NCBI GenBank assembly: GCA_030041195.1
Contig: JASHOI010000562.1
Span: 1-30,530, forward strand
Length of the DNA stretch: 30,530 bases
Direction: 5' to 3'
Origin: Streptosporangiaceae bacterium
Lineage (GTDB): Bacteria > Actinomycetota > Actinomycetes > Streptosporangiales > Streptosporangiaceae
Shown piece by piece: positions 20,702-29,936 of the stretch. The number at the start of each line of letters is the position of its first letter. Position 1 is the stretch's first letter. The notes below the pieces were generated by a model that was not told the origin of the DNA, ran no database searches, and worked only from the letters and a program-made list of their open reading frames with translations. Both the position numbers and the translations under genes were made by a program.

Positions 20702-20707
20702 TACAGT
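20702..20707 (+). promoter_or_regulatory. -10 box fixing the start of the gene at 20715
   Basis: TACAGT is followed by 7 nt and an in-frame GTG at 20715. A GTG at 20706 overlaps the box and so cannot be on the transcript, which makes 20715 the better start. No clear -35 box is seen. Confidence 0.55.
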
Positions 20708-20714
20708 GGGATTC

Positions 20715-23648
20715 GTGCGCTCTGGCGACCGCCCGGCCGGCAACGCCGCCGCGACTGACCAGTCGTCGGCGGCCACGGAAGTCACCGGCAACCCCGAGGA
20801 TATCGGCGCCGACGGGTTGGCGGCGACCGTTCAGCCGACTGCCCAGGCGAGCGAGGCCGGGGAGCCCGCGGCGGGCCCCGACCGCGACGAGCCGGCGGCC
20901 GAGGACCGGCCCGGGCTCAGCGAGGACCGGGACAGCCCCTGGGCGCCCGGCGGGGGCGGGTCGCGCTCTCCCGGCCTCTCGGATCTGCCGGACCCTCCCG
21001 ATTCCCCTCTGCCGAACCCTCCCGATTCCCCGTGGTCGTCCGACCCCGCTGGCCCGTCGGACGCGCCGGGCCCGCCCGGTGCCCCGGGTTCGCTGGGCCC
21101 GCCCGGTGCCCCGGGGTCCCTGGCCTCAGCTGATTCCCCGGGCTCCGCTGGCCCCTCGGATCTGCCGGGGTCCCTCGGGGGGTCCGAGGAGGCCGGCCAG
21201 GACCGGCGGGATCAGGCACGCGGCGGCCCAGGGCCCGAGGCCGCACCCGCGGGGTCGCGGCCGACAGCGTCCCGGGCCGGAGCCGCTCGGCTCGGGGCCC
21301 GTACCGGGTTCCCCGCGCCGGGGCAGCGGAGCGGCCAGCGCCCCGAACGCCGGCCCAGATACCCGGACGCCGCCGGAGCAGGGTTCGCCAGGATCACCGT
21401 GCTGCCGGCGATCCTCATCGTGGCCTGGCTGCTGGTCGGCCTGCCGCTGCTGCTCGCCGGGGTGTTCCTGCCGGCCCCGATGCTGCTGCTTTCGGTGCCG
21501 CTGGCCGTTCTGCTGGCCGGGGGCCTGAACCGCATGCCCGCCCGCTGGCCGCGCGCGCTGCCCGGCGCGGTCCGGGCGCCGGGAACCCAGCCGCGCCGGG
21601 AATCAAGCTGGCCGGCCTGGTGCGGGCTCGTGGGCACGATCGTGGTGGCGGCCGGCTTCGCCTTCTGGCAGTTCCGGTTCAACTCCGAGACCGTGATCGT
21701 GCTCCGCGACCCAGGGGCCTACCTGCAGACGGGCTACTGGATAGCCCAGCACGGCTCGCTGCCGATCCCGCAGTCGCTGGCGGCCTTCGGCGGCGCGCAT
21801 CCCGGGCTCGCGTTTTCCAGCACCGGATTCGCCGCCAGCGGCACCTCCGTCGTGCCCCGGCTCATGTCCGGGCTGCCGTTACTCCTCGCCGGCGCGTTCT
21901 GGGTACACGGGACCCCGGCGGCCGCGGCCATGGGGCCGATACTCGGCGGCCTCGCGGTGCTGGCCTTCGGCGGCCTGGTTGGCCGGCTGACCGGCCCGCA
22001 GTGGGCCCCGGCCGGGGCGCTGGTGCTGGCGTGCACGCTTCCCGAGCAGTACACGAGCCGGGCGTCGTTCGGCGAAACCGCCGTCCAGGTGCTGCTGTTC
22101 GGTGGGCTGAGCCTGGTCGTGGACGCCCTGGTTCTCGGGCGCAGGCGCGTCGAGCCCGCGCCGTCCGCTTCGGCGGGGGGACCGGTGGCTCCCGGACCGT
22201 ACCCGGCGGCACGAGCGCGGTACCCGGCAGCAAAGCGGCTCGGGGTGCTCTCGGCGGGCCGCGGCCGCGGGCCGGCCTGGGCGCTGATGGGGCTCGGCGG
22301 GCTGGCGCTCGGGATGACCTCCGTGGTGGGATTTGACGGGCTCCTCTATATCCTCCCGGCGATTCCGTTCGTGGGCATCCTGGTCGTTCGCCGGAGCAGG
22401 AAAGCCGCCCCGCTCTGCATAGGCCTGGCGATCGGCGCGGCGTACGGGCTCGCCGACGGCTACCTGCTGGCGCGGCCGTTCGTGGACTCGCTGCAGCCGA
22501 TGCCCGAACTGATCGGCCTGATCGCCGCGTGGCTGCTCGCGATGACCGTGGCCGGGGTCGAGCTGCTGCGCCTGCCGGGATTCCGCGACGGCCTGCGGCC
22601 GGTGCTGGCCAGGCGCCCGGCGCGCTGGCTGCCCGATCTCTGCGGCGTCCTGGCCGTGGCCGCGATCGTTGGTCTCGCGATCCGGCCGTATGTGCAGACC
22701 GTGCGCGGACCGGCCACCGGGGCGACCGCCAGCCTTGTCGCCAGCCTGCAGCGCCTCGAGCACCTGCCGGTCGACCCGGGGCGGCTCTATGCCGAGGACA
22801 CCCTGTACTGGGTCATCTGGTATGTCGGGGTGCCCGCGGTGCTGCTCGGCGGGTTCGGGCTCGCGCTGCTGCTGCGGCGCTGCCTCCGCGCGCTGTTCGC
22901 GTGGCGTGACCCCTCCGGCGCGGCCCGCGTCTGGGGACTGCCGCTCGCGGTCATCTGCTGTGGCTCGGCGGCCGTCCTCTGGCAGCCGGAAACCGCCCCA
23001 GACCAGCCGTGGGCCAGCCGCCGCCTGGTCCCCCTGGTGATCCCGGGACTGATCCTCTGCGCGATCTGGGCGTCGGCGTGGCTGCGCGGGCGCGCGCGAT
23101 CGCGCGGCGCGAGCACGACGGCCGCATCGATCGTGGCCGCTTTCTGTGTCGCGGCGCTGCTCGTGCCCACCGTGGCAACCACGTTCGGCCTTGGCCTGAC
23201 GCACTCGGGCAGAGGCGGCGCGCTGCGGCTCACCGCCGATGGCCTGGCGCTGAAGCGGACCAGCCCGGGCGAAGACGGCGCCGTCACCAGGCTGTGCTCG
23301 TCGCTCGGGCCTTCCGCGTCGGTCGTGATCGTCGCCTTGCCGGTGGCCCAGCAGTTCACCCAGGTGATCAGGGGCATGTGCGGCGTCCCGGCTGCCTCGA
23401 TGGCCGGGCAGCCAACCGCCGCCGTGCAGACCGTGCTGGCCAGCATCGAGCACGCGGGCCGGCGGCCGGTGCTGCTCGGTGCGCGGCCATCGCAGCTGTA
23501 CCCCTACGGCGGCGGCAGCCCGCTCCGGGTGCTCGACCTGTCCACCTCGCAGGACCCGCACACGCTGACCCAGCCGCCGACCACGCTCTCGCCCGCCGAC
23601 TACGTCATCTGGATGTCAGCCATCGGCCCGCTTGGCACTCGCGCCTGA
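20715..23648 (+). CDS. Large multi-pass membrane protein, GT-C-like, with collagen-like N-terminus
   Basis: A 977-residue protein. Residues 1-~215 are hydrophilic and low-complexity, rich in Pro, Gly, Ser and Asp, with collagen-like GPPGAPGSL repeats; this part should be in the cytoplasm. About 14 membrane segments follow. After an early pair of helices comes VLRDPGAYLQTGYWIAQHGSLPIP, like the first extracytoplasmic loop of GT-C glycosyltransferases (an Asp near DPGxYL and a GSLPIP turn), so a polyprenol-phosphate sugar transferase is likely but not proven. A C-terminal extracytoplasmic domain (about 820-970) has a Cys-containing LCSSLGPSASVVIVAL region. It is divergent from the LCP gene and followed by the initiator tRNA gene. 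The leaderless GTG at 20715 is preferred. Confidence 0.78.
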   Translation: MRSGDRPAGNAAATDQSSAATEVTGNPEDIGADGLAATVQPTAQASEAGEPAAGPDRDEPAAEDRPGLSEDRDSPWAPGGGGSRSPGLSDLPDPPDSPLPNPPDSPWSSDPAGPSDAPGPPGAPGSLGPPGAPGSLASADSPGSAGPSDLPGSLGGSEEAGQDRRDQARGGPGPEAAPAGSRPTASRAGAARLGARTGFPAPGQRSGQRPERRPRYPDAAGAGFARITVLPAILIVAWLLVGLPLLLAGVFLPAPMLLLSVPLAVLLAGGLNRMPARWPRALPGAVRAPGTQPRRESSWPAWCGLVGTIVVAAGFAFWQFRFNSETVIVLRDPGAYLQTGYWIAQHGSLPIPQSLAAFGGAHPGLAFSSTGFAASGTSVVPRLMSGLPLLLAGAFWVHGTPAAAAMGPILGGLAVLAFGGLVGRLTGPQWAPAGALVLACTLPEQYTSRASFGETAVQVLLFGGLSLVVDALVLGRRRVEPAPSASAGGPVAPGPYPAARARYPAAKRLGVLSAGRGRGPAWALMGLGGLALGMTSVVGFDGLLYILPAIPFVGILVVRRSRKAAPLCIGLAIGAAYGLADGYLLARPFVDSLQPMPELIGLIAAWLLAMTVAGVELLRLPGFRDGLRPVLARRPARWLPDLCGVLAVAAIVGLAIRPYVQTVRGPATGATASLVASLQRLEHLPVDPGRLYAEDTLYWVIWYVGVPAVLLGGFGLALLLRRCLRALFAWRDPSGAARVWGLPLAVICCGSAAVLWQPETAPDQPWASRRLVPLVIPGLILCAIWASAWLRGRARSRGASTTAASIVAAFCVAALLVPTVATTFGLGLTHSGRGGALRLTADGLALKRTSPGEDGAVTRLCSSLGPSASVVIVALPVAQQFTQVIRGMCGVPAASMAGQPTAAVQTVLASIEHAGRRPVLLGARPSQLYPYGGGSPLRVLDLSTSQDPHTLTQPPTTLSPADYVIWMSAIGPLGTRA
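21068..21121 (+). repeat. Two tandem 27-bp units coding GPPGAPGSL
   Basis: Units 21068-21094 and 21095-21121 are nearly identical and encode the nine residues GPPGAPGSL twice in a collagen-like region. Weaker related repeats (DPPDSPLPNPPDSP) lie just upstream at about 20990-21035. Confidence 0.8.
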
Positions 23649-23889: not shown

Positions 23890-23917
23890 CTGTCACTTGA
23901 CAGCTGTCACTTGATAG
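23890..23917. repeat. Tandem 14-bp palindromic repeat at the end of vapC
   Basis: CTGTCACTTGACAG (23890-23903) is followed by CTGTCACTTGATAG (23904-23917), 13 of 14 identical. Each unit is itself an inverted repeat, CTGTCA/TGACAG around CT. The second unit overlaps the vapC stop codon. Its GTCA/TGAC half-sites resemble those near the vapB promoter. Confidence 0.7.
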
Positions 23918-24323
23918 TCACGGTTTCGATCGTGCATCGTGCCGCGCCAGCGCGGGCGATGCGGTGGTCGGTGGTGACGAGCGGGACGTCGAGGGCTTCG
24001 CTGAGTGCCACGTACTGGGCATCGTAGACCGACAGGTTCGCCGAGAGCGCCCACACGCGCTCCCACAGCCGCAGCGTGTGGTGCCGCTCGACGGGAAGGA
24101 GGCGGAATGTCGCCATTGCCTTCTCGGTCTGTCGCTTGCCGAGTTTGGGCTCACCTCCTCGCGTCCCGCGCGAGAGTCCAGCCAGGGCCGACATCACCTC
24201 GTAATCCAGCAGTTCCGGGGCACACAACGCGTCCTCTCGCCGGACGCGCTCACGGACCTGATGCCCGGTGGGGCCGTCATCGGTGAGGTAGAAGATGATG
24301 GCGGAGGAGTCGGCGACGATCAC
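23907..24323 (-). CDS. vapC: VapC-family PIN-domain toxin ribonuclease
   Basis: A 138-residue PIN-domain protein. The acidic metal-binding residues are all present: Asp5 in VADSSAI, Glu42 in LLDYEVMSAL, Asp101 in VYDAQYVALSE and Asp119 in TTDHRIA. VapC toxins cut RNA at defined sites; several cleave initiator tRNA-fMet in the anticodon loop and others cut other tRNAs or 23S rRNA. The ATG overlaps the vapB stop by four bases (ATGA), the usual antitoxin-first, coupled arrangement. It points toward the tRNA-fMet gene and ends 62 bp from that gene's terminator. The target RNA is unknown; the neighbour is only a hint. Confidence 0.92.
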   Translation of the reverse strand: MIVADSSAIIFYLTDDGPTGHQVRERVRREDALCAPELLDYEVMSALAGLSRGTRGGEPKLGKRQTEKAMATFRLLPVERHHTLRLWERVWALSANLSVYDAQYVALSEALDVPLVTTDHRIARAGAARCTIETVTIK

Positions 24324-24550
24324 CGGCCGCGTCGCGCCTCGTCGATGGCGCCGAGTACGTCGTCGGTGCTGAGTGACGCGCTGGCCTCGGCCTCGGCCCG
24401 GCTGGTGACCTCAGCGAGGGTCGGGCGGGCGGCCTCGCGGGCGATGAGATCCAACAGGTACGCCTGCAGGCTCTTGCCCGCTTGCGCAGCTCGGGCCTTC
24501 AGCGTGATCAGGGTGCTGTCGGGCACTCGCCGGATAGTCACGTCAGTCAT
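24320..24550 (-). CDS. vapB: VapB/FitA-type RHH antitoxin
   Basis: A 76-residue antitoxin. Residues 1-40 (TDVTIRRVPDSTLITLKARAAQAGKSLQAYLLDLIAREA) read as a ribbon-helix-helix DNA-binding domain of the FitA type; the remaining acidic tail (AEAEASASLSTDDVLGAIDEARRGR) should wrap around the toxin active site. It is the first gene of the operon. A perfect TATAAT box ends 6 nt before its ATG at 24550, so the message should be leaderless. Inverted and direct GTCA/TGAC half-sites around that promoter fit autorepression by the VapBC complex. Confidence 0.9.
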   Translation of the reverse strand: MTDVTIRRVPDSTLITLKARAAQAGKSLQAYLLDLIAREAARPTLAEVTSRAEAEASASLSTDDVLGAIDEARRGR

Positions 24551-24577
24551 GCCATCATTATATCGTCAATGCTGACG
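24536..24577 (-). promoter_or_regulatory. vapBC promoter and operator
   Basis: On the minus strand the inverted repeat CGTCA-GCAT-TGACG (24577-24564) lies directly upstream of TATAAT (24562-24557), which is 6 nt from the vapB ATG. Further TGAC half-sites follow within the first codons (TGACTGACGTGAC). This layout suits a dimeric RHH repressor. Confidence 0.65.
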
Positions 24578-24655
24578 AAGTGCTGCTTACGATTGCCGTG
24601 AGACAGCCGTGACACCAGCATCCTTTCTGAGACCAGATCGGGGAAGATCGCGCAG

Positions 24656-24743
24656 TCAGAATGGCAGCGAGCTTGTCCGGATATGGTCGCGGGTTCCCTT
24701 CCAGTCGATCTCGGGCGGCTGCGGGCGTCGGCGGTTGCGGACG
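24656..24743 (-). other. Possible frameshifted C-terminal tail of the TauD-like gene
   Basis: Directly after the TAG at 24746-24744 the frame shifted by one base stays open to a TGA at 24658-24656 with 23 of 28 codons ending in G or C, and reads through PPEIDWKGTRDHI. The in-frame continuation has much weaker GC3. This looks like lost or displaced coding sequence. The alternative is chance in GC-rich DNA. Confidence 0.4.
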
Positions 24744-25532
24744 CTAGCCGCCGATTACCTTGCGGTACACCCGGGGGCCGTCGTAGTCGTTGACGGCGTA
24801 GTGCCAGGTGGCCTGGTTGTCCCAGAGGACGAAGTCGCCTGGTTTCCAGCCGAAGCCGACGGTGTAGTTCGGGGAGGAGGCGTGGTTGAGCAGGAAGGGC
24901 AGCAGCGCCTTGCTCTCGGCATCGGTGACGCCGGTGAGCCGCAGGGCGGATGTGCTGATGAAGACCCCCTTGCGGCCCGTGTGGCGGTGGGTCCGTACCA
25001 CCGGGTGCTCGACTGTCTCGGTGACCGGCGGCCTGTTGTAGGTTCCGTCGCCCGGGTCGGCGCCGTAGACGCCGTTGACGGACTCCAGCAGCTGCTTGAC
25101 CGGCTCGGACAGGCCGTCGTAGGCCGCCTGCAGGTCGGCCCACAACGTGTGGCCGCCGACATCGGGCACGACCTGGTAGGTGAGCGACTCGATGTTGAAC
25201 GGCGGGTTGCGCCACGTGCCCCCGACGTGCCAGTGCGATGCGGAGCCGGCCTTCTCCAGGTTGAAGGTGTAGACGAGGCGGCTGTCCTCGTGCCGGTGTA
25301 CCCACTTGGGGTGGTCGAAGGGCTCGTCGAAGATGCGCACCGCTTCCACGTGCTGGAGCGGCGACAGGTTCTGGCCCCGGAAGACCAGGACCTTGTAGGT
25401 CCAGAACGCCTCCCGCAGGGCCTCTGCGGTGACCTCGTCGACGGGCTGGGTCAGGTCCACGCCCTCGATCTCGGCGCCGATCAGGGGGCTGGCCGGATGG
25501 GCTTCGAAGCGGCTGGTCAGGGTCTCGGTCAC
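24744..25532 (-). CDS. TauD/TfdA-fold Fe(II)/2-oxoglutarate enzyme with HxG instead of HxD
   Basis: A 262-residue member of the TauD/TfdA family. The N-terminal PLIGAEIEGVDLTQPVDE and FWTYKVLVFRGQNLSP blocks, GGHTLWADLQAAYDGLS and the C-terminal WDNQATWHYAVNDY...RVYRK are all typical. The iron triad normally reads WHTD...H. Here it is WHVG: His102 and the distal His244 are present, but the Asp position is Gly104. Thr129 and Arg254/Arg257 for 2-oxoglutarate are kept. HxG or HxA is the hallmark of non-haem iron halogenases, so a halogenase-like or atypical reaction is possible; an inactive protein is the alternative. It has GAGGAGG before the ATG and its own promoter, lies after an amino-acid permease gene, and may be truncated at the C-terminus. 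Confidence 0.85.
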   Translation of the reverse strand: MTETLTSRFEAHPASPLIGAEIEGVDLTQPVDEVTAEALREAFWTYKVLVFRGQNLSPLQHVEAVRIFDEPFDHPKWVHRHEDSRLVYTFNLEKAGSASHWHVGGTWRNPPFNIESLTYQVVPDVGGHTLWADLQAAYDGLSEPVKQLLESVNGVYGADPGDGTYNRPPVTETVEHPVVRTHRHTGRKGVFISTSALRLTGVTDAESKALLPFLLNHASSPNYTVGFGWKPGDFVLWDNQATWHYAVNDYDGPRVYRKVIGG

Positions 25533-25570
25533 GTTGCTTCCTCCTCGAGGGTGACCACCGTGCCACCTAA

Positions 25571-25599
25571 ATCCTATTTATCCTATCGATTTTATTCAA
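25571..25599 (-). promoter_or_regulatory. Promoter of the TauD-like gene
   Basis: On the minus strand TTGAAT (25599-25594), a 17-nt spacer and TAGGAT (25576-25571) make a good promoter in an AT-rich patch. The -10 region contains a direct repeat ATAGGAT-AA-ATAGGAT (25586-25571) that could be an operator. Confidence 0.65.
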
Positions 25600-25682
25600 C
25601 AGCCTCGTGCTCCAGGACGGGCCAGCGGTTCGGGTGGCCAGAAGCCCAGCGCACGATGTGCCGGCGGGCACCGCGGCACCGG

Positions 25683-27344
25683 CTAGCGCTCCGACGCTGC
25701 CGGTGCCCCGATCGCGACGGCCACCAGTGCGTCGGACACGGCGGGTGAGTCCGCGACGTCCTCCCCGGCGGTCGCCTCGATGTGCTTGCTGCCGACACGG
25801 ACCGCCCACAGGTAGATGCCGACCGACACCATCGCGACGATGATCGAGTCCCAGGGCTGCCCGATCCAGCCCTGGCCGCCGAAGCTGCCGATCCCGGAGA
25901 ACAGGACGAGCAGCAGAAGATAGGCGACGAGCCAGGCACCCGCCTTGATGTCGTCGGTGAGCGGCCGGTCGTTGGTGCGGAGGAAGAAGAACAGCACCAC
26001 GCCGATCAGGGTGACAGGGAACGCGACCCGCAGGTTGCTCCAGCCGGACCAGTAGGCGATCTCGGTGGACAAGATGAAGCTGACCGGCGCGATCCACCTG
26101 ATGCCGGGGATCCATCCTGACAGGCGGGTCGGCGCGGCGCTGCGGAAGGTGCCGGCGGCGATCGCGGAGACGGCGTAGGACAGCACGAACACGTCGCCGA
26201 GGATCGAGACGAGGGTGATCCAGCTGTGCAGGGGGATGAGGACCACGAGGCCGACGATGAAGTTGAGCAGCAGCGCGCGGCGCGGCACGCCGGACTTGCC
26301 AGGGACGGACAGGAAGTACTTCGGCAGCAGCCGGTTCTTCGACAGGGCGTAGGTCTGCCTGGCGGCCTCGGCGGTGCCGACGAACTCCGAGCCGGACGGG
26401 GAGATCACCGCGTCGACGTACAGCAGGCTGGACAGCCAGCCGAGGTTCACCGCAAGGGCGAGCTGGCCGAACGGCGAGGTGAAGTCGATGCCCTTCCAGC
26501 CGTGGACCAGCAGGCTGTGCGGGATGGCCACCAGGAAGGCGAGCTGGAGCAGGATGTAGAGCACTGCCGAGGCGCCGATCGCGACGAGGATCGCGCGCGG
26601 GATGTCTCGGCGCGGGTTGCGTGCCTCGCCGGACAGGTCGACCGGCGGCTGGAAGCCGTTGAGAGCGTAGATCAGCCCGCCGGACGCGATCGCCGACAGG
26701 ATCGCGGCACCGCCGTAGGGTGCGAAGCCGCCCGCGCTGGTGAGGTTGCTGCCGTGGAAGCCGGAGGCGAACAAGGCGATCACCGTGATGGCCGGGACGA
26801 TGAACTTCACCCAGGTGACCACCAGGTTGAGCCTGGCGAACAGCCGGATGCCAAACCAGTTGAGCACGACGAGCACTGCCTCGAGGCCGGCCGCGACGCC
26901 GACGCCGGCCGCCGACAGCGAGCTGCCGTGGTACAGCCAGGGCCAGTAGTGGCTCAGATACTGGGTGACTGCCAGCACCTCGGTGTCGGTGAGCAGGCCG
27001 AGGACGATGGTCCAGCCGAACGTGGTGCCCACGATCCGGCCGTTGGCGTACAAGGGCCAGCGGACGCTGCCGCCGACCTCGGGCCGGGACGCGCCGAGCT
27101 CGACCAGGACCAGGCTGACCAGGGCGACGGCCACGCCGGCGATTAACCAGGAGATGAGCGCGGCGGGGCCAGCCAGCTGCGCGCCGTAGAAGGCGCCGAA
27201 CAGCCAGCCCGAGCCGATGATGCCGCCGAAGGAGGTCGCGGTGAGCGACCAGAACCCGAGCGAGTGGTGGAAGTGCTGCTCCTGAACGATGAGCTCGGAG
27301 ACGCTAGCAGGCACTGGCGGTATCTCAGTCGCTGCTTGTGACAT
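25683..27344 (-). CDS. APC-superfamily amino-acid permease
   Basis: A 553-residue transporter with about 12-14 membrane helices. The first helix FGGIIGSGWLFGAFYGAQLAGP contains the GSG-type broken-helix motif that holds the amino or carboxyl group of substrates in the APC fold; LVLVELGASRPEVGGSVRWP and YALNGFQPPVDLSGEARNPRRDIPRAI are the usual family blocks (the latter after TM6). It should import an amino acid or amine with protons; the substrate cannot be read from sequence. The frame is open 20 codons further up, but MSQAATEIPPV at 27344, with GGAG 6 nt before the ATG, is the better start. The TauD-like gene lies 150 bp downstream on the same strand, with its own promoter. Confidence 0.9.
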   Translation of the reverse strand: MSQAATEIPPVPASVSELIVQEQHFHHSLGFWSLTATSFGGIIGSGWLFGAFYGAQLAGPAALISWLIAGVAVALVSLVLVELGASRPEVGGSVRWPLYANGRIVGTTFGWTIVLGLLTDTEVLAVTQYLSHYWPWLYHGSSLSAAGVGVAAGLEAVLVVLNWFGIRLFARLNLVVTWVKFIVPAITVIALFASGFHGSNLTSAGGFAPYGGAAILSAIASGGLIYALNGFQPPVDLSGEARNPRRDIPRAILVAIGASAVLYILLQLAFLVAIPHSLLVHGWKGIDFTSPFGQLALAVNLGWLSSLLYVDAVISPSGSEFVGTAEAARQTYALSKNRLLPKYFLSVPGKSGVPRRALLLNFIVGLVVLIPLHSWITLVSILGDVFVLSYAVSAIAAGTFRSAAPTRLSGWIPGIRWIAPVSFILSTEIAYWSGWSNLRVAFPVTLIGVVLFFFLRTNDRPLTDDIKAGAWLVAYLLLLVLFSGIGSFGGQGWIGQPWDSIIVAMVSVGIYLWAVRVGSKHIEATAGEDVADSPAVSDALVAVAIGAPAASER

Positions 27345-27410
27345 GGAGGCTCCACGGAGGGGGTAACGGGGGACCGGGGTGGCGTTACGCCTCCAGGCAA
27401 ACACGTTCCG

Positions 27411-27447
27411 TTCATATAGTCAATAAAAACAGTCGGAAATATATGAA
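27411..27447. promoter_or_regulatory. AT-rich inverted repeat upstream of the permease
   Basis: TTCATATA (27411-27418) and TATATGAA (27440-27447) are perfect complements separated by 21 nt, within an AT-rich patch ~70 bp before the permease start. It could hold the promoter (TATATG or TATATT boxes on the minus strand) and a regulator site. The rest of 27448-27641 shows no gene I can support. Confidence 0.45.
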
Positions 27448-27641
27448 TTACGTGATGGCCACCTTGCGGCAGCGTGAGAGCGGGCGGTTCGTGCCGGAGA
27501 TCAGGGATCGGTCAGCTCTGACCGGACCTCGCGGAGGAGTGCGCCGACCGCGTCGGCCAGGATCCGCGGGAGCGTCCTGGCGGCCACGTGATCCATCCGC
27601 CAGGCTGGCATCATCCGCCGGCTCCGCGGGCCGGCTGGTAA

Positions 27642-28355
27642 TCAGGCTGGGACCCGGACCAGCTGGAACCGAGTGCGGCGCCGGATTGTGAACCCGAGCG
27701 ACTCATACAGCCGGATCGCGTTCGTGTTGCTCGCGGCCGCGTGCAGGAAGGGGACGCTGCCCTGCTCGCGGATGTCGGCGGCGATGGCCTTGACCAGCAC
27801 GGTGGCCAGGCCCCGGCCGCGGTAAGCGGGATCGGTGCACACCGCGGAGATCTCGACCCAGCCCGGCGGATGCAGCCGTTCGCCGGCCATCGCGATGAGC
27901 GCGCCGTCCCGGCGCACGCCGAGATAGGTACCCATCTCGATCGTGCGCCGGCGGAATGGTCCGGGCCTGGTTCGCTTGGCCAGGTCGAGCATCTCCGGAA
28001 CATCGCTGCCCTGCAGGCGTACCGCCTCGGAACTCGCCGCGGCCTGGAGGCCTGCATCGATCATCTGCACACCGTCGCCGCTGTCCACGAGTTCCCATCC
28101 CGGCGGCAGCGAGGCCGCCAGCCCGGCCAGCGGGACCAGCCTGCCGGGGCCGACGAGGGTGAGCAGGTCGCCGAACACTTCCTCGTCGGCACCCGGGGCG
28201 ACGGCGACGAACGGAGACACGTCGGCGGGATAACGTGCCGCCTGACCCTTGACTTCGGCGAAGCGCGCATGCGGCCCGGTCAGCGACGTCCATGCCGCGT
28301 GGTCGAGCACGTATGCGTCGCCCGGCCCGAGCAGCGCGTCCCTTGATGCCATCAT
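27642..28355 (-). CDS. GNAT-family N-acetyltransferase
   Basis: A 237-residue protein. The C-terminal ~130 residues are a GNAT domain: the acetyl-CoA pyrophosphate loop is in VCTDPAYRGRGLATVLVKAI, and NAIRLYESLGFTIRRRTRF is motif B, as in the FR47-like branch. The N-terminal ~100 residues (DAYVLDHAAWTSLTGPHARFAE...) form a separate domain usual for this branch. The acceptor is unknown. Two ATG codons in tandem (28355, 28352) begin the frame, without a ribosome site; TATACA at 28371-28366, 10 nt upstream, suggests a near-leaderless message. It is divergent from the GntR-type gene across 212 bp. Confidence 0.88.
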   Translation of the reverse strand: MMASRDALLGPGDAYVLDHAAWTSLTGPHARFAEVKGQAARYPADVSPFVAVAPGADEEVFGDLLTLVGPGRLVPLAGLAASLPPGWELVDSGDGVQMIDAGLQAAASSEAVRLQGSDVPEMLDLAKRTRPGPFRRRTIEMGTYLGVRRDGALIAMAGERLHPPGWVEISAVCTDPAYRGRGLATVLVKAIAADIREQGSVPFLHAAASNTNAIRLYESLGFTIRRRTRFQLVRVPA

Positions 28356-28465
28356 CGGTATTTTCTGTATAAACGATTTGTTTAGTTGATTTTACTGGCT
28401 GCTCGAAGCCCGAAAGACTCGCAGCTGGTGCGTCGGGTGGTAAGGCCGTGCTCAAGGCAAGATAG

Positions 28466-28478
28466 ATTGTTCGACAAT
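28466..28478. promoter_or_regulatory. GntR/FCD operator-like site 1
   Basis: ATTGTTCGACAAT has the arms ATTGT/ACAAT expected for an FCD-type GntR dimer. A related site lies at 28554-28566. Confidence 0.6.
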
Positions 28479-28553
28479 GTGGGAGAGATACTGACACCCT
28501 TCCTAGGCTGTCACGTGCACTCCTGAGTCTACGATCGAGAATCGCGGCCCTTG

Positions 28554-28566
28554 ACTGTTGAACAAT
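28554..28566. promoter_or_regulatory. GntR/FCD operator-like site 2, abutting the start codon
   Basis: ACTGTTGAACAAT matches site 1 at 10 of 13 positions and ends 1 nt before the ATG at 28568, so binding here would block its own expression. Confidence 0.6.
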
Positions 28567-28567
28567 A

Positions 28568-29263
28568 ATGCCGTACGTTGCGCCGGTGCGGGAGGAGCCC
28601 TCGGCAGCGGCGGAAGCTTCCGGTGCGGCGTGCCGGGCGGCTGATGCGCTCCGCGAGCGCATCCTGGGAGGCGAGCTACGACCAGGCTCTGCGCTGCGCG
28701 AGACTGCGCTCGCTGCCCAGCTGGATGTCTCGCGCAATTCGCTGCGCGAGGGCTTGCGGCTGCTCTCAGCCGACGGGCTGGTCGTGCACGTGCCTAACAA
28801 GGGGACGGCCGTCAGCCGGCTCGCCGTGCCGGAAGTACGCGATATCTACCGGGCCCGGCGAGCCCTGGAAGTGCAGGCCGCAACCGAAAGCGCGACCGCC
28901 AGCCCTGAACGGTTCAAGGACATGGACGCCGCGGTCGCCGACGAAGAACGAGCCGAACAGGCCCAGGCGTGGCGCGCGGCCCTGACCGCGGGCTTGCGGT
29001 TTCATCATGCGCTGGTCGCGGTGCTCGGAAGCAGTCGGCTCGACAGTTTCTTCTGGACCCTTCTTGCCCAGTTGCGCCTGGCCTGGGCGGAAGCCGGCGA
29101 TGACGACAGCCTGCAGCAATCCTGGGCTGAGCGCGACAGGGAACTGTACGAATTGCTGCGCACGGGGCGCCGCTCGCACGGTGTTGGTGCCCTGCTGGTC
29201 TACCTTGCCGACTCCGAACGTCAGGTGCTGGACGTCCTGCGTGCACGGGACAGCCGCCAGTGA
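28568..29263 (+). CDS. GntR-family transcriptional regulator, FadR/FCD type
   Basis: A 231-residue regulator. Residues ~20-90 are the GntR winged helix (ALRERILGGELRPGSALRETALAAQLDVSRNSLREGLRLLSADGLV, with the wing VPNKGTAVS). Residues ~95-225 are a helical FCD ligand-binding domain: RARRALEVQAA, FHHALVAVLGSSRL and the last helix HGVGALLVYLADSERQVLDVL. Some FCD metal ligands (Asp and His) are hard to assign. Two similar 13-bp palindromes upstream suggest autoregulation and perhaps control of the divergent GNAT gene. No ribosome site precedes the ATG. The flavodoxin-fold reductase follows 52 bp downstream, probably in the same operon. Confidence 0.88.
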   Translation: MPYVAPVREEPSAAAEASGAACRAADALRERILGGELRPGSALRETALAAQLDVSRNSLREGLRLLSADGLVVHVPNKGTAVSRLAVPEVRDIYRARRALEVQAATESATASPERFKDMDAAVADEERAEQAQAWRAALTAGLRFHHALVAVLGSSRLDSFFWTLLAQLRLAWAEAGDDDSLQQSWAERDRELYELLRTGRRSHGVGALLVYLADSERQVLDVLRARDSRQ

Positions 29264-29315: not shown

Positions 29316-29936
29316 GTGGTTACAGACCAGCCTGGGCAACCGGACCGCAACTTCCTTTTCCTGCTCGGGAGCGCGCGTGCCGACGGCAACACCGAAACGC
29401 TGGCCCAGCATGCCGCGCGGGGCCTGCCGGCCGGTGCCGGGCAGCAATGGCTCCGGCTCAGCGAGTTGCCGCTGCCGGAGTACTCAGACACGCGTCACCA
29501 AGCCGGGCGGCGCGAGGCCCGTGAGTGGCCCTCCGGTAATGAGCGGCTGCTTCTGGAAACCACCCTGCACGCCACCGACCTGGTCATCGCCTCGCCGCTG
29601 TACTGGTACAGCGTGTCAGCCGGCATCAAGCGTTACCTGGACTACTGGGTCTGGTGGATGTACACGCCCGAGGCGCAGTTCAAGACCAGGATGCGCGGCA
29701 AGGTCATGTGGGTGATCACCACGCTCAGCGAGGAGCCGGAACAGGCCAGTCCGCTGGTCGACACGCTCCGCCGCTGCGCCGTTTACCTCGGCATGCGCTG
29801 GGGCGGCGTGCTGCTGGGCAACGGCAGCGCGCCAGGCGACGTGCTCACCGACGCCAACGTGCTGGCCAGGGCAGCGACCTTCTTCTCCGCGCCCGCAGGT
29901 GACCCGGCAACCGCCGCGCTGCCCGCGCGATCCTGA
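29316..29936 (+). CDS. NAD(P)H-dependent FMN reductase / flavodoxin-fold oxidoreductase
   Basis: A 206-residue protein of the flavodoxin-like NADPH-dependent FMN reductase family. The FMN phosphate loop is GSARADGNTETLAQH near the N-terminus, and ATDLVIASPLYWYSVSAGIKRYLDYWVWW carries the isoalloxazine-binding Pro-Leu-Tyr-Trp loop typical of the family. It should transfer electrons from NAD(P)H to FMN, a quinone or another acceptor in the cytoplasm. The frame is open 103 codons upstream inside the GntR gene, but the GTG at 29316 follows GGAGG by 7 nt and gives a normal length. It is the second gene of the GntR operon, so the ligand of the regulator may relate to its substrate. Confidence 0.9.
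   Translation: MVTDQPGQPDRNFLFLLGSARADGNTETLAQHAARGLPAGAGQQWLRLSELPLPEYSDTRHQAGRREAREWPSGNERLLLETTLHATDLVIASPLYWYSVSAGIKRYLDYWVWWMYTPEAQFKTRMRGKVMWVITTLSEEPEQASPLVDTLRRCAVYLGMRWGGVLLGNGSAPGDVLTDANVLARAATFFSAPAGDPATAALPARS

Follow-up and report, generated by a model that had tools for sequence, protein, structure and literature searches.

Introduction

Dioxygenases of the TauD/AtsK family, which use Fe(II) and 2-oxoglutarate (2OG), hydroxylate their substrates next to a hetero-atom, and this leads to cleavage of a C-S or C-O bond. In Fe/2OG halogenases the carboxylate ligand of the iron site is missing, as described in excerpts from PubMed Central (PMC) articles PMC11186838 and PMC12346261, and loss of this Asp or Glu ligand serves as a filter for such halogenases in sequence mining (excerpt of PMC11186838). 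The known natural enzymes with an Asp loss take up halide, according to portions of PMC12346261, PMC11186838 and PMC10187165, and in BesD the binding of halide and of substrate is strongly linked (PMC10187165, same portion). Here we describe a TauD-family gene in a 30,530-nucleotide stretch of DNA from a Streptosporangiaceae bacterium (GenBank assembly GCA_030041195.1, contig JASHOI010000562.1, positions 1 to 30,530), referred to below as the window, whose product carries His-x-Gly (HxG) in place of the His-x-Asp (HxD) of the iron site, and which an earlier note made from the letters alone had read as plausibly a halogenase or another rebound-altering enzyme.

Organosulfur salvage offers a second comparison. 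In the portions of PMC12757645 and PMC10863075 that describe the S-modified-cysteine salvage clusters of Bacillus subtilis (scm/yxe, ytn and yha), a GNAT acetyltransferase stands together with an NtaA/DszA-type monooxygenase, and these portions do not mention an HxG enzyme. The same pairing of GNAT and NtaA/DszA-type monooxygenases is found around six relatives of the window gene (loci L028, L029, L034, L039, L044 and L050), in L039 additionally with an amino-acid-type ATP-binding cassette (ABC) transporter, and unlike the B. subtilis clusters the window has a GNAT gene but no NtaA/DszA-type monooxygenase. Among the papers listed in searches of open-licence PMC (in one case 20 of 138), none dealt with an HxG TauD clade and none with a 2OG enzyme in S-alkylcysteine salvage, both being weak absences.

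We consider it reasonably likely that the window gene encodes a sulfur-starvation Fe(II)/2OG enzyme of TauD/AtsK kinship with a part in releasing sulfur from an organosulfur substrate, likely an amino-acid-like one. The earlier call on the sequence was right and is stronger than had been claimed, while the halogenase reading is possible and not favoured.

An HxG iron site in a TauD fold

The window protein has the TauD fold and matches Pfam TauD (E 3.7e-48), and its closest solved relatives by sequence are AtsK, TauD and similar dioxygenases. The SHWHVGGTW block aligned without gaps with the HTDVTF block of Escherichia coli TauD and AtsK; in this alignment H102 is the first iron His and G104 takes the Asp position, as had been proposed in the earlier note, and T129, H244 and R254 are kept, in agreement with its statement that both His, the Thr and the 2OG Arg remain (the Arg is now placed as R254). 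The HxD...H facial triad of the TauD/AtsK dioxygenases is therefore absent, with HxG in every clade member seen. The positions concerned are as follows, where row counts refer to a 128-member family alignment (49 HxG rows, 79 HxD rows, no third state) and counts out of 214 to one alignment of 213 listed homologues plus the window protein.

24744 to 25532, minus strand: HxG TauD-family enzyme, 262 amino acids, GTG start, no Cys and no Met after the start
25539 to 25546, minus strand: likely ribosome-binding site GAGGAGGA before the GTG start, read from the sequence
25311 to 25313, minus strand: H74, aligned with TauD H70; 49/49 HxG rows and 212/214
25218 to 25229, minus strand: H102-V103-G104-G105, by alignment the first iron His and the Gly-Gly that replaces the Asp ligand and the next residue
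25188 to 25190, minus strand: E115, invariant Glu specific to the clade; 49/49 HxG rows, Thr, Ser, Ala or Gly in 79/79 HxD relatives
25146 to 25148, minus strand: T129, 2OG-binding Thr, aligned with TauD T126; 128/128 family rows
24801 to 24803, minus strand: H244, distal iron His by alignment
24759 to 24773, minus strand: R254 (2OG Arg) to K258, the K258 position being Arg in 77/79 HxD relatives

We take T129, like TauD T126, to bind 2OG, and we take TauD H70 and R270, at whose positions H74 and K258 stand, to be sulfonate-binding. Compared with TauD and the type II alkylsulfatases AtsK and Rv3406, the clade of the window protein has HxG rather than HxD, Lys for the substrate-binding Arg, a shorter lid region, and clade-specific E115, S116, Y119, Y156, W243 and Y256. 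It is like the HxG/HxA halogenases (SyrB2, WelO5, BesD, AdaV, DAH) in that the carboxylate ligand is gone and the two His and the 2OG residues are kept, and unlike them in its sulfur-scavenging setting. PlaO1 was also considered as a possible HxG relative and was set aside, the alignment having covered its C-terminal part only, with the metal motif outside; a literature search gave no paper on PlaO1.

The Gly is the mark of an old clade

Homologues were taken as the best 120 of 772 matches and, with a distant member as query, the best 120 of 458, giving 213 distinct sequences. The pattern WH.GG.W was present in 120/120 homologues listed from the first search, and WH.GG.WR in 93/93 new ones listed from the second. 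In the common alignment, H102, G104, G105, R108, E115, S116 and T129 were each found in 214/214 rows, and H244, R254 and K258 (as Lys) each in 213/214, with one gap apiece. The earlier note had allowed that close homologues might keep Asp, making the Gly a lone mutation; because the carboxylate ligand is gone clade-wide and the remaining Fe/2OG machinery is kept, a lone mutation is refuted.

A genome scan yielded 50 clade loci (L001-L050) at 58-82% identity, the next full-length relatives being at about 32%. The hosts are Frankia, Pseudofrankia, Protofrankia, Mycobacterium, Mycolicibacterium, Streptomyces, Actinomadura, Amycolatopsis, Pseudonocardia, Rhodococcoides, Rhodococcus, Williamsia and other actinobacteria. 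All 50 loci carry WH.GG.WR, which is not an independent test, since the motif was one of the scan's two patterns. The 49 HxG rows of the family alignment include one duplicate (L081 equals L018; same genome G007, last 200 residues identical), and L047, L048 and L049 carry the motif but stand outside these rows, having failed the frame or coverage filter (the L047 frame has 138 amino acids, and that of L049 has 159 at a contig end). A fragment covering query residues 179-261, L052, was dropped before the counts; this HxG-clade gene fragment (71%) lies on another scaffold of Streptomyces sp. CB01635, which has the full gene L024.

In a maximum-likelihood tree built by a quick method, a branch with support 100 separated the HxG rows from all others, with a long stem of 1.4 changes per column. 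Next to them stood three HxD rows (support 90), followed by the AtsK group (95), and the Frankiaceae loci were nearest to the window. The HxG group is an old, strictly conserved actinobacterial clade. Its distribution is patchy: among 296 Actinomycetota genomes a close member was found only in the centre genome, which had been chosen for having one, the other 28 genomes with matches at E<=1e-30 reaching at most 173 bits, with fetched best matches that were HxD; and in the family of G020, 3/341 genomes hold a clade member, two of these not new.

A probably re-designed pocket, and a dead enzyme unlikely

In the 128-member alignment neither the HxG nor the HxD group shows any variation in the cofactor residues, and several other positions switched together with the Gly, namely E115 (0/79 in HxD rows), S116, Y119, Y156, W243, Y256 and K258. 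Sulfate- and sulfonate-binding residues are described as conserved between TauD and type II sulfatases in an excerpt of PMC3675115; of the sulfo-group residues the clade keeps the His and replaces the Arg by Lys. The pattern suggests that the pocket underwent a coordinated re-design, in which the anion anchor was probably kept and a new acid probably gained. In addition, the ratio of nonsynonymous to synonymous substitutions (dN/dS) was 0.05-0.31 in 13/13 gene pairs.

A dead enzyme, which the earlier note had named as its main alternative, is unlikely, because the protein retains the iron His and 2OG residues and because the Gly came with changes elsewhere in the pocket. A pseudoenzyme that serves as a binding or sensing protein for 2OG or a sulfur compound would account for the family-defining metal ligand being missing in all clade members seen; the retention of both iron His, the 2OG Thr and the 2OG Arg and the strong purifying selection speak against it, and we regard it as very improbable.

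E115 may be a relocated iron ligand or a substrate-binding acid. If it reaches the iron as a moved carboxylate, the protein would be an ordinary hydroxylase with a rearranged triad, a reading that overlaps with our preferred one. Its presence in every row of the homologue alignment and in no HxD row, and its change together with Y119, Y256 and K258, favour this; alternatively, E115 could form a pair with K258 or contact the ammonium group of a substrate, and we hold the moved ligand to be rather unlikely.

Sulfur-scavenging genes surround the clade

Neighbours were clustered over the 50 clade loci, the genes being called by a simple GC-position script that misread some of them or called them antisense (GNAT genes were at first called on the wrong strand). 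A cluster of NtaA/DmoA-family flavin mononucleotide (FMN) monooxygenases lies near the HxG gene in 23/50 loci, and 4/4 members tested were over the TIGR03860 cut-off. Also near HxG genes are other luciferase-like monooxygenases, an SsuD-like enzyme, SsuA (over cut-off), SsuB- and SsuC-like proteins (below cut-off), O-acetylhomoserine sulfhydrylase MetY (over its subfamily cut-off) and parts of oligopeptide-type transporters. A family-3 solute-binding protein cluster of the amino-acid type (Pfam SBP_bac_3) is present in 10/50 loci, its closest transporter model being the cystine one, far below cut-off. At least one sulfur-type cluster was found in 36/50 loci, and in L029, L032 and L050 an NtaA/DmoA-type gene overlaps at its end with the start of the HxG gene.

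The enrichment was compared with 20 control stretches of 20 kb from six HxG-bearing genomes. With profiles built from these neighbours, a luciferase-type monooxygenase was found in 33/50 clade loci and in 0/20 control stretches (Fisher p 1e-7, not corrected for kinship among the loci). The same profiles gave 71 matches in 0.95 Mb of HxG loci, and as background 20 HxG-bearing genomes (175.8 Mb) held 813 TIGR03860 matches at E<=0.001, or 4.6 per Mb. A further set of 111 neighbours, made up of 110 of the 199 near genes of 24 loci plus the L050 GNAT and drawn from 17/50 loci chosen by hand, contained 30 Bac_luciferase proteins and 17 proteins that match TIGR03860 at E<=1e-40; 30/111 is not a fair average, because 16/17 chosen loci have sulfur clusters vs 36/50 overall. 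Among the listed Pfam families of this set, 25 of 67, there was no M20-type N-acetylcysteine deacetylase. Organosulfur-scavenging families are enriched among the clade's neighbours.

As a separate observation, a protein of cluster c16 occurs in six Streptomyces loci (L028, L033, L034, L035, L039, L044); its gene directly adjoins the HxG gene in L028, L033, L034 and L035, and the L028 member matches the NCBIfam model 'beta-glucuronidase AbsR1' over cut-off.

Depletion of Cys and Met

Sulfur-acquisition enzymes made under sulfate starvation are sulfur-poor in Rhodococcus qingshengii IGTS8, as described in a portion of PMC8557817. In the present clade, 192/213 listed homologues are without Cys or Met after the start, with a mean of 0.05 per 100 amino acids, compared to 2.34 in 242 control-stretch gene calls (which may include false genes) and 1.67 in 32 actinobacterial HxD relatives. 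Neighbours were depleted as well, the Cys plus Met content per 100 amino acids being 0.24 for NtaA/DmoA, 0.44 for SsuA and 0.37 for the family-3 binding proteins; a neighbouring major facilitator superfamily transporter, at 2.93, showed no depletion. As a sulfur-sparing signature, the near-total lack of Cys and Met in the clade is unusually clean. On the AtsK branch, five HxD relatives (L036, L100, L103, L104, L105) likewise contain neither Cys nor Met after the start, so that TauD-family proteins free of sulfur also occur outside the HxG clade.

Leader peptides upstream of clade genes

A short frame with RRL[YH]VDLAR and a Cys near its end precedes the HxG gene in 10/50 loci, the motif starting 98-175 nucleotides upstream on the same strand; these loci are from nine named Streptomyces and from 'Actinobacteria bacterium OV320' on the same branch. 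The pattern was absent from the 20 control stretches. A looser pattern gave 11/50, adding L049, and 7 further leader-like matches lie elsewhere in the loci. Of the peptides, those of L018, L022, L026, L027, L036, L039 and L044 were scanned, and 7/7 matched NCBIfam NF042934 'putative leader peptide' (cis_reg_atten) at E<=6e-4, one being over the curated cut-off. Cys-rich short open reading frames are cysteine-responsive attenuators in mycobacteria (Canestrari 2020, as described in a part of PMC9094748), and the leaders in the clade are cysteine-attenuator-like. L027 has a further leader peptide over the NF042934 cut-off, about 1036 nucleotides after the HxG start, between the HxG gene and an SsuD-like gene.

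An ATAGGAT repeat was tried as a shared upstream DNA motif and rejected, being present in 1/50 upstream regions, the window's own only. A promoter and terminator scan of positions 24400-28700 gave no site between the permease and the HxG gene, with counts near chance, and repeats in this region were unremarkable.

The window locus and the substrate class

The genes upstream of the HxG gene in the window are as follows.

25683 to 27344, minus strand: APC-type amino-acid permease, 150 bp upstream of the HxG gene on the same strand, likely start MSQAAT
27642 to 28355, minus strand: GNAT acetyltransferase, with relatives at 44-62% within 10 kb of the HxG gene in 7/50 other loci
28568 to 29263, plus strand: GntR/FCD regulator, divergent
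29316 to 29936, plus strand: NADPH-dependent FMN reductase-like protein; one also adjoins the HxG gene in L010

The APC permease has no Cys and 1 internal Met in 553 amino acids, against an expectation of 12.9 from the control rate (Poisson P 3e-5). Only the HxG gene and the permease are so depleted in the window, the other called genes of more than 150 amino acids having at least 0.87 per 100; because both stand out in this way, they probably form a small sulfur-starvation unit. As a conserved neighbour the permease was rejected: only weak matches (25-27%) were found, in 2/50 loci, so that the pair is so far peculiar to the window.

The GNAT relatives reach 57-62% in L028, L029, L034, L039, L044 and L050, and 44% in L046. 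In L050 the GNAT gene directly follows the HxG gene, and in L039 the genes run ABC permease, ATPase, family-3 binding protein, GNAT, NtaA-type, NtaA-type, HxG. GntR/FCD-type proteins (cluster c18) lie near the HxG gene in L010, L016, L029 and L030, and the FMN reductase-like protein could act as a flavin supplier. Since amino-acid-type transporters occur in the window and elsewhere, our best guess for the substrate class is an S-substituted amino acid or its N-acetyl form. An amino-acid-like small substrate, as the earlier note suggested, is therefore plausible given the window permease and the family-3 binding proteins, and the halogenase part of that suggestion is not supported.

Proposed function and the halogenase alternative

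Four lines point to sulfur starvation, namely the neighbours as compared with the control stretches, the gene overlap, the leader peptides and the composition. The sulfur-scavenging setting is established for the clade; for the window itself it is seen only in the composition of the enzyme and the permease and in the shared GNAT. In the mechanism that we propose, the protein would be made by actinomycetes under sulfur scarcity, and its organosulfur substrate would enter the cell through the APC permease in the case of the window and through an ABC transporter of the amino-acid type in that of some other loci; the GNAT would perhaps N-acetylate it. The iron would be held by two His and bidentate 2OG, and the ferryl would take a hydrogen next to a hetero-atom; rebound, or transfer of the cis ligand instead, would then produce an unstable adduct, which would break down in the way known from TauD and AtsK. 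The site emptied by the Asp-to-Gly change might be filled by a halide, water, a substrate group or E115, and the iron site is probably open to a non-protein ligand or to a relocated Glu.

A true Fe/2OG halogenase would place chloride or bromide in the vacated site and transfer it to the substrate radical. The Asp-to-Gly change with both His and the 2OG residues kept is common to the known halogenases (parts of PMC11186838 and PMC12346261). A cryptic halogenase would also fit a sulfur setting, with chlorination next to sulfur leading to a C-S break: an alpha-chloro thioether hydrolyses, which breaks the C-S bond. The sulfur-scavenging neighbours, the leaders and the scarcity of Cys and Met nevertheless count against halogenation, and no halogenase is named among the 40 solved sequences that matched at E<=10, although kinship to one is not required because Fe/2OG halogenases have arisen more than once. 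The absence of SyrB2, WelO5 and BesD from the 50 fold matches listed in each of two fold searches carries no weight. We judge a true halogenase to be improbable.

Several points weigh against a sulfur-releasing enzyme. Loss of the carboxylate normally cripples hydroxylases, and a sulfur-starvation protein need not act on sulfur. The window has no luciferase-type or NtaA-type monooxygenase and no match to the leader pattern on either strand, and no sulfur depletion is seen in its GNAT or its FMN reductase. Across the clade, 17/50 loci are without a luciferase-type neighbour, among them 8/12 of the Frankiaceae loci (L001-L009, L012-L014) that are nearest to the window. The 33/50 figure leans upward because the neighbourhoods counted also supplied the sequences for the monooxygenase profiles, and the locus counts are not independent because the loci are related. 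Finally, non-sulfur genes directly abut the HxG gene in some loci, an alpha/beta hydrolase-like gene in L016 and a major facilitator superfamily transporter (2.93 Cys plus Met per 100 amino acids) in L020 and L021.

Taken further, there is perhaps an even chance that this old and widespread HxG clade is not a halogenase clade and breaks C-S (or C-O-S) bonds for sulfur by way of a substrate group, E115 or a cryptic halide. If so, genome mining could not rely on HxG as a mark of halogenation any more. The clade would represent either a site of the halogenase type that serves to break C-S bonds or a facial triad with a relocated acid, and either way the carboxylate's part in hydroxylation versus other outcomes becomes testable on a natural enzyme.

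Other features near the HxG gene

Positions 20706-23648 on the plus strand encode a 980-amino-acid protein whose N-terminus is rich in Pro, Gly, Ser and Asp and which, judged by eye, has many hydrophobic stretches; no Pfam family matches it at E<=1e-4. Immediately downstream of the HxG gene, at 23907-24550 on the minus strand, overlapping genes encode a PIN-domain protein and a FitA-like ribbon-helix-helix protein, a toxin-antitoxin pair of the VapBC/FitAB type.
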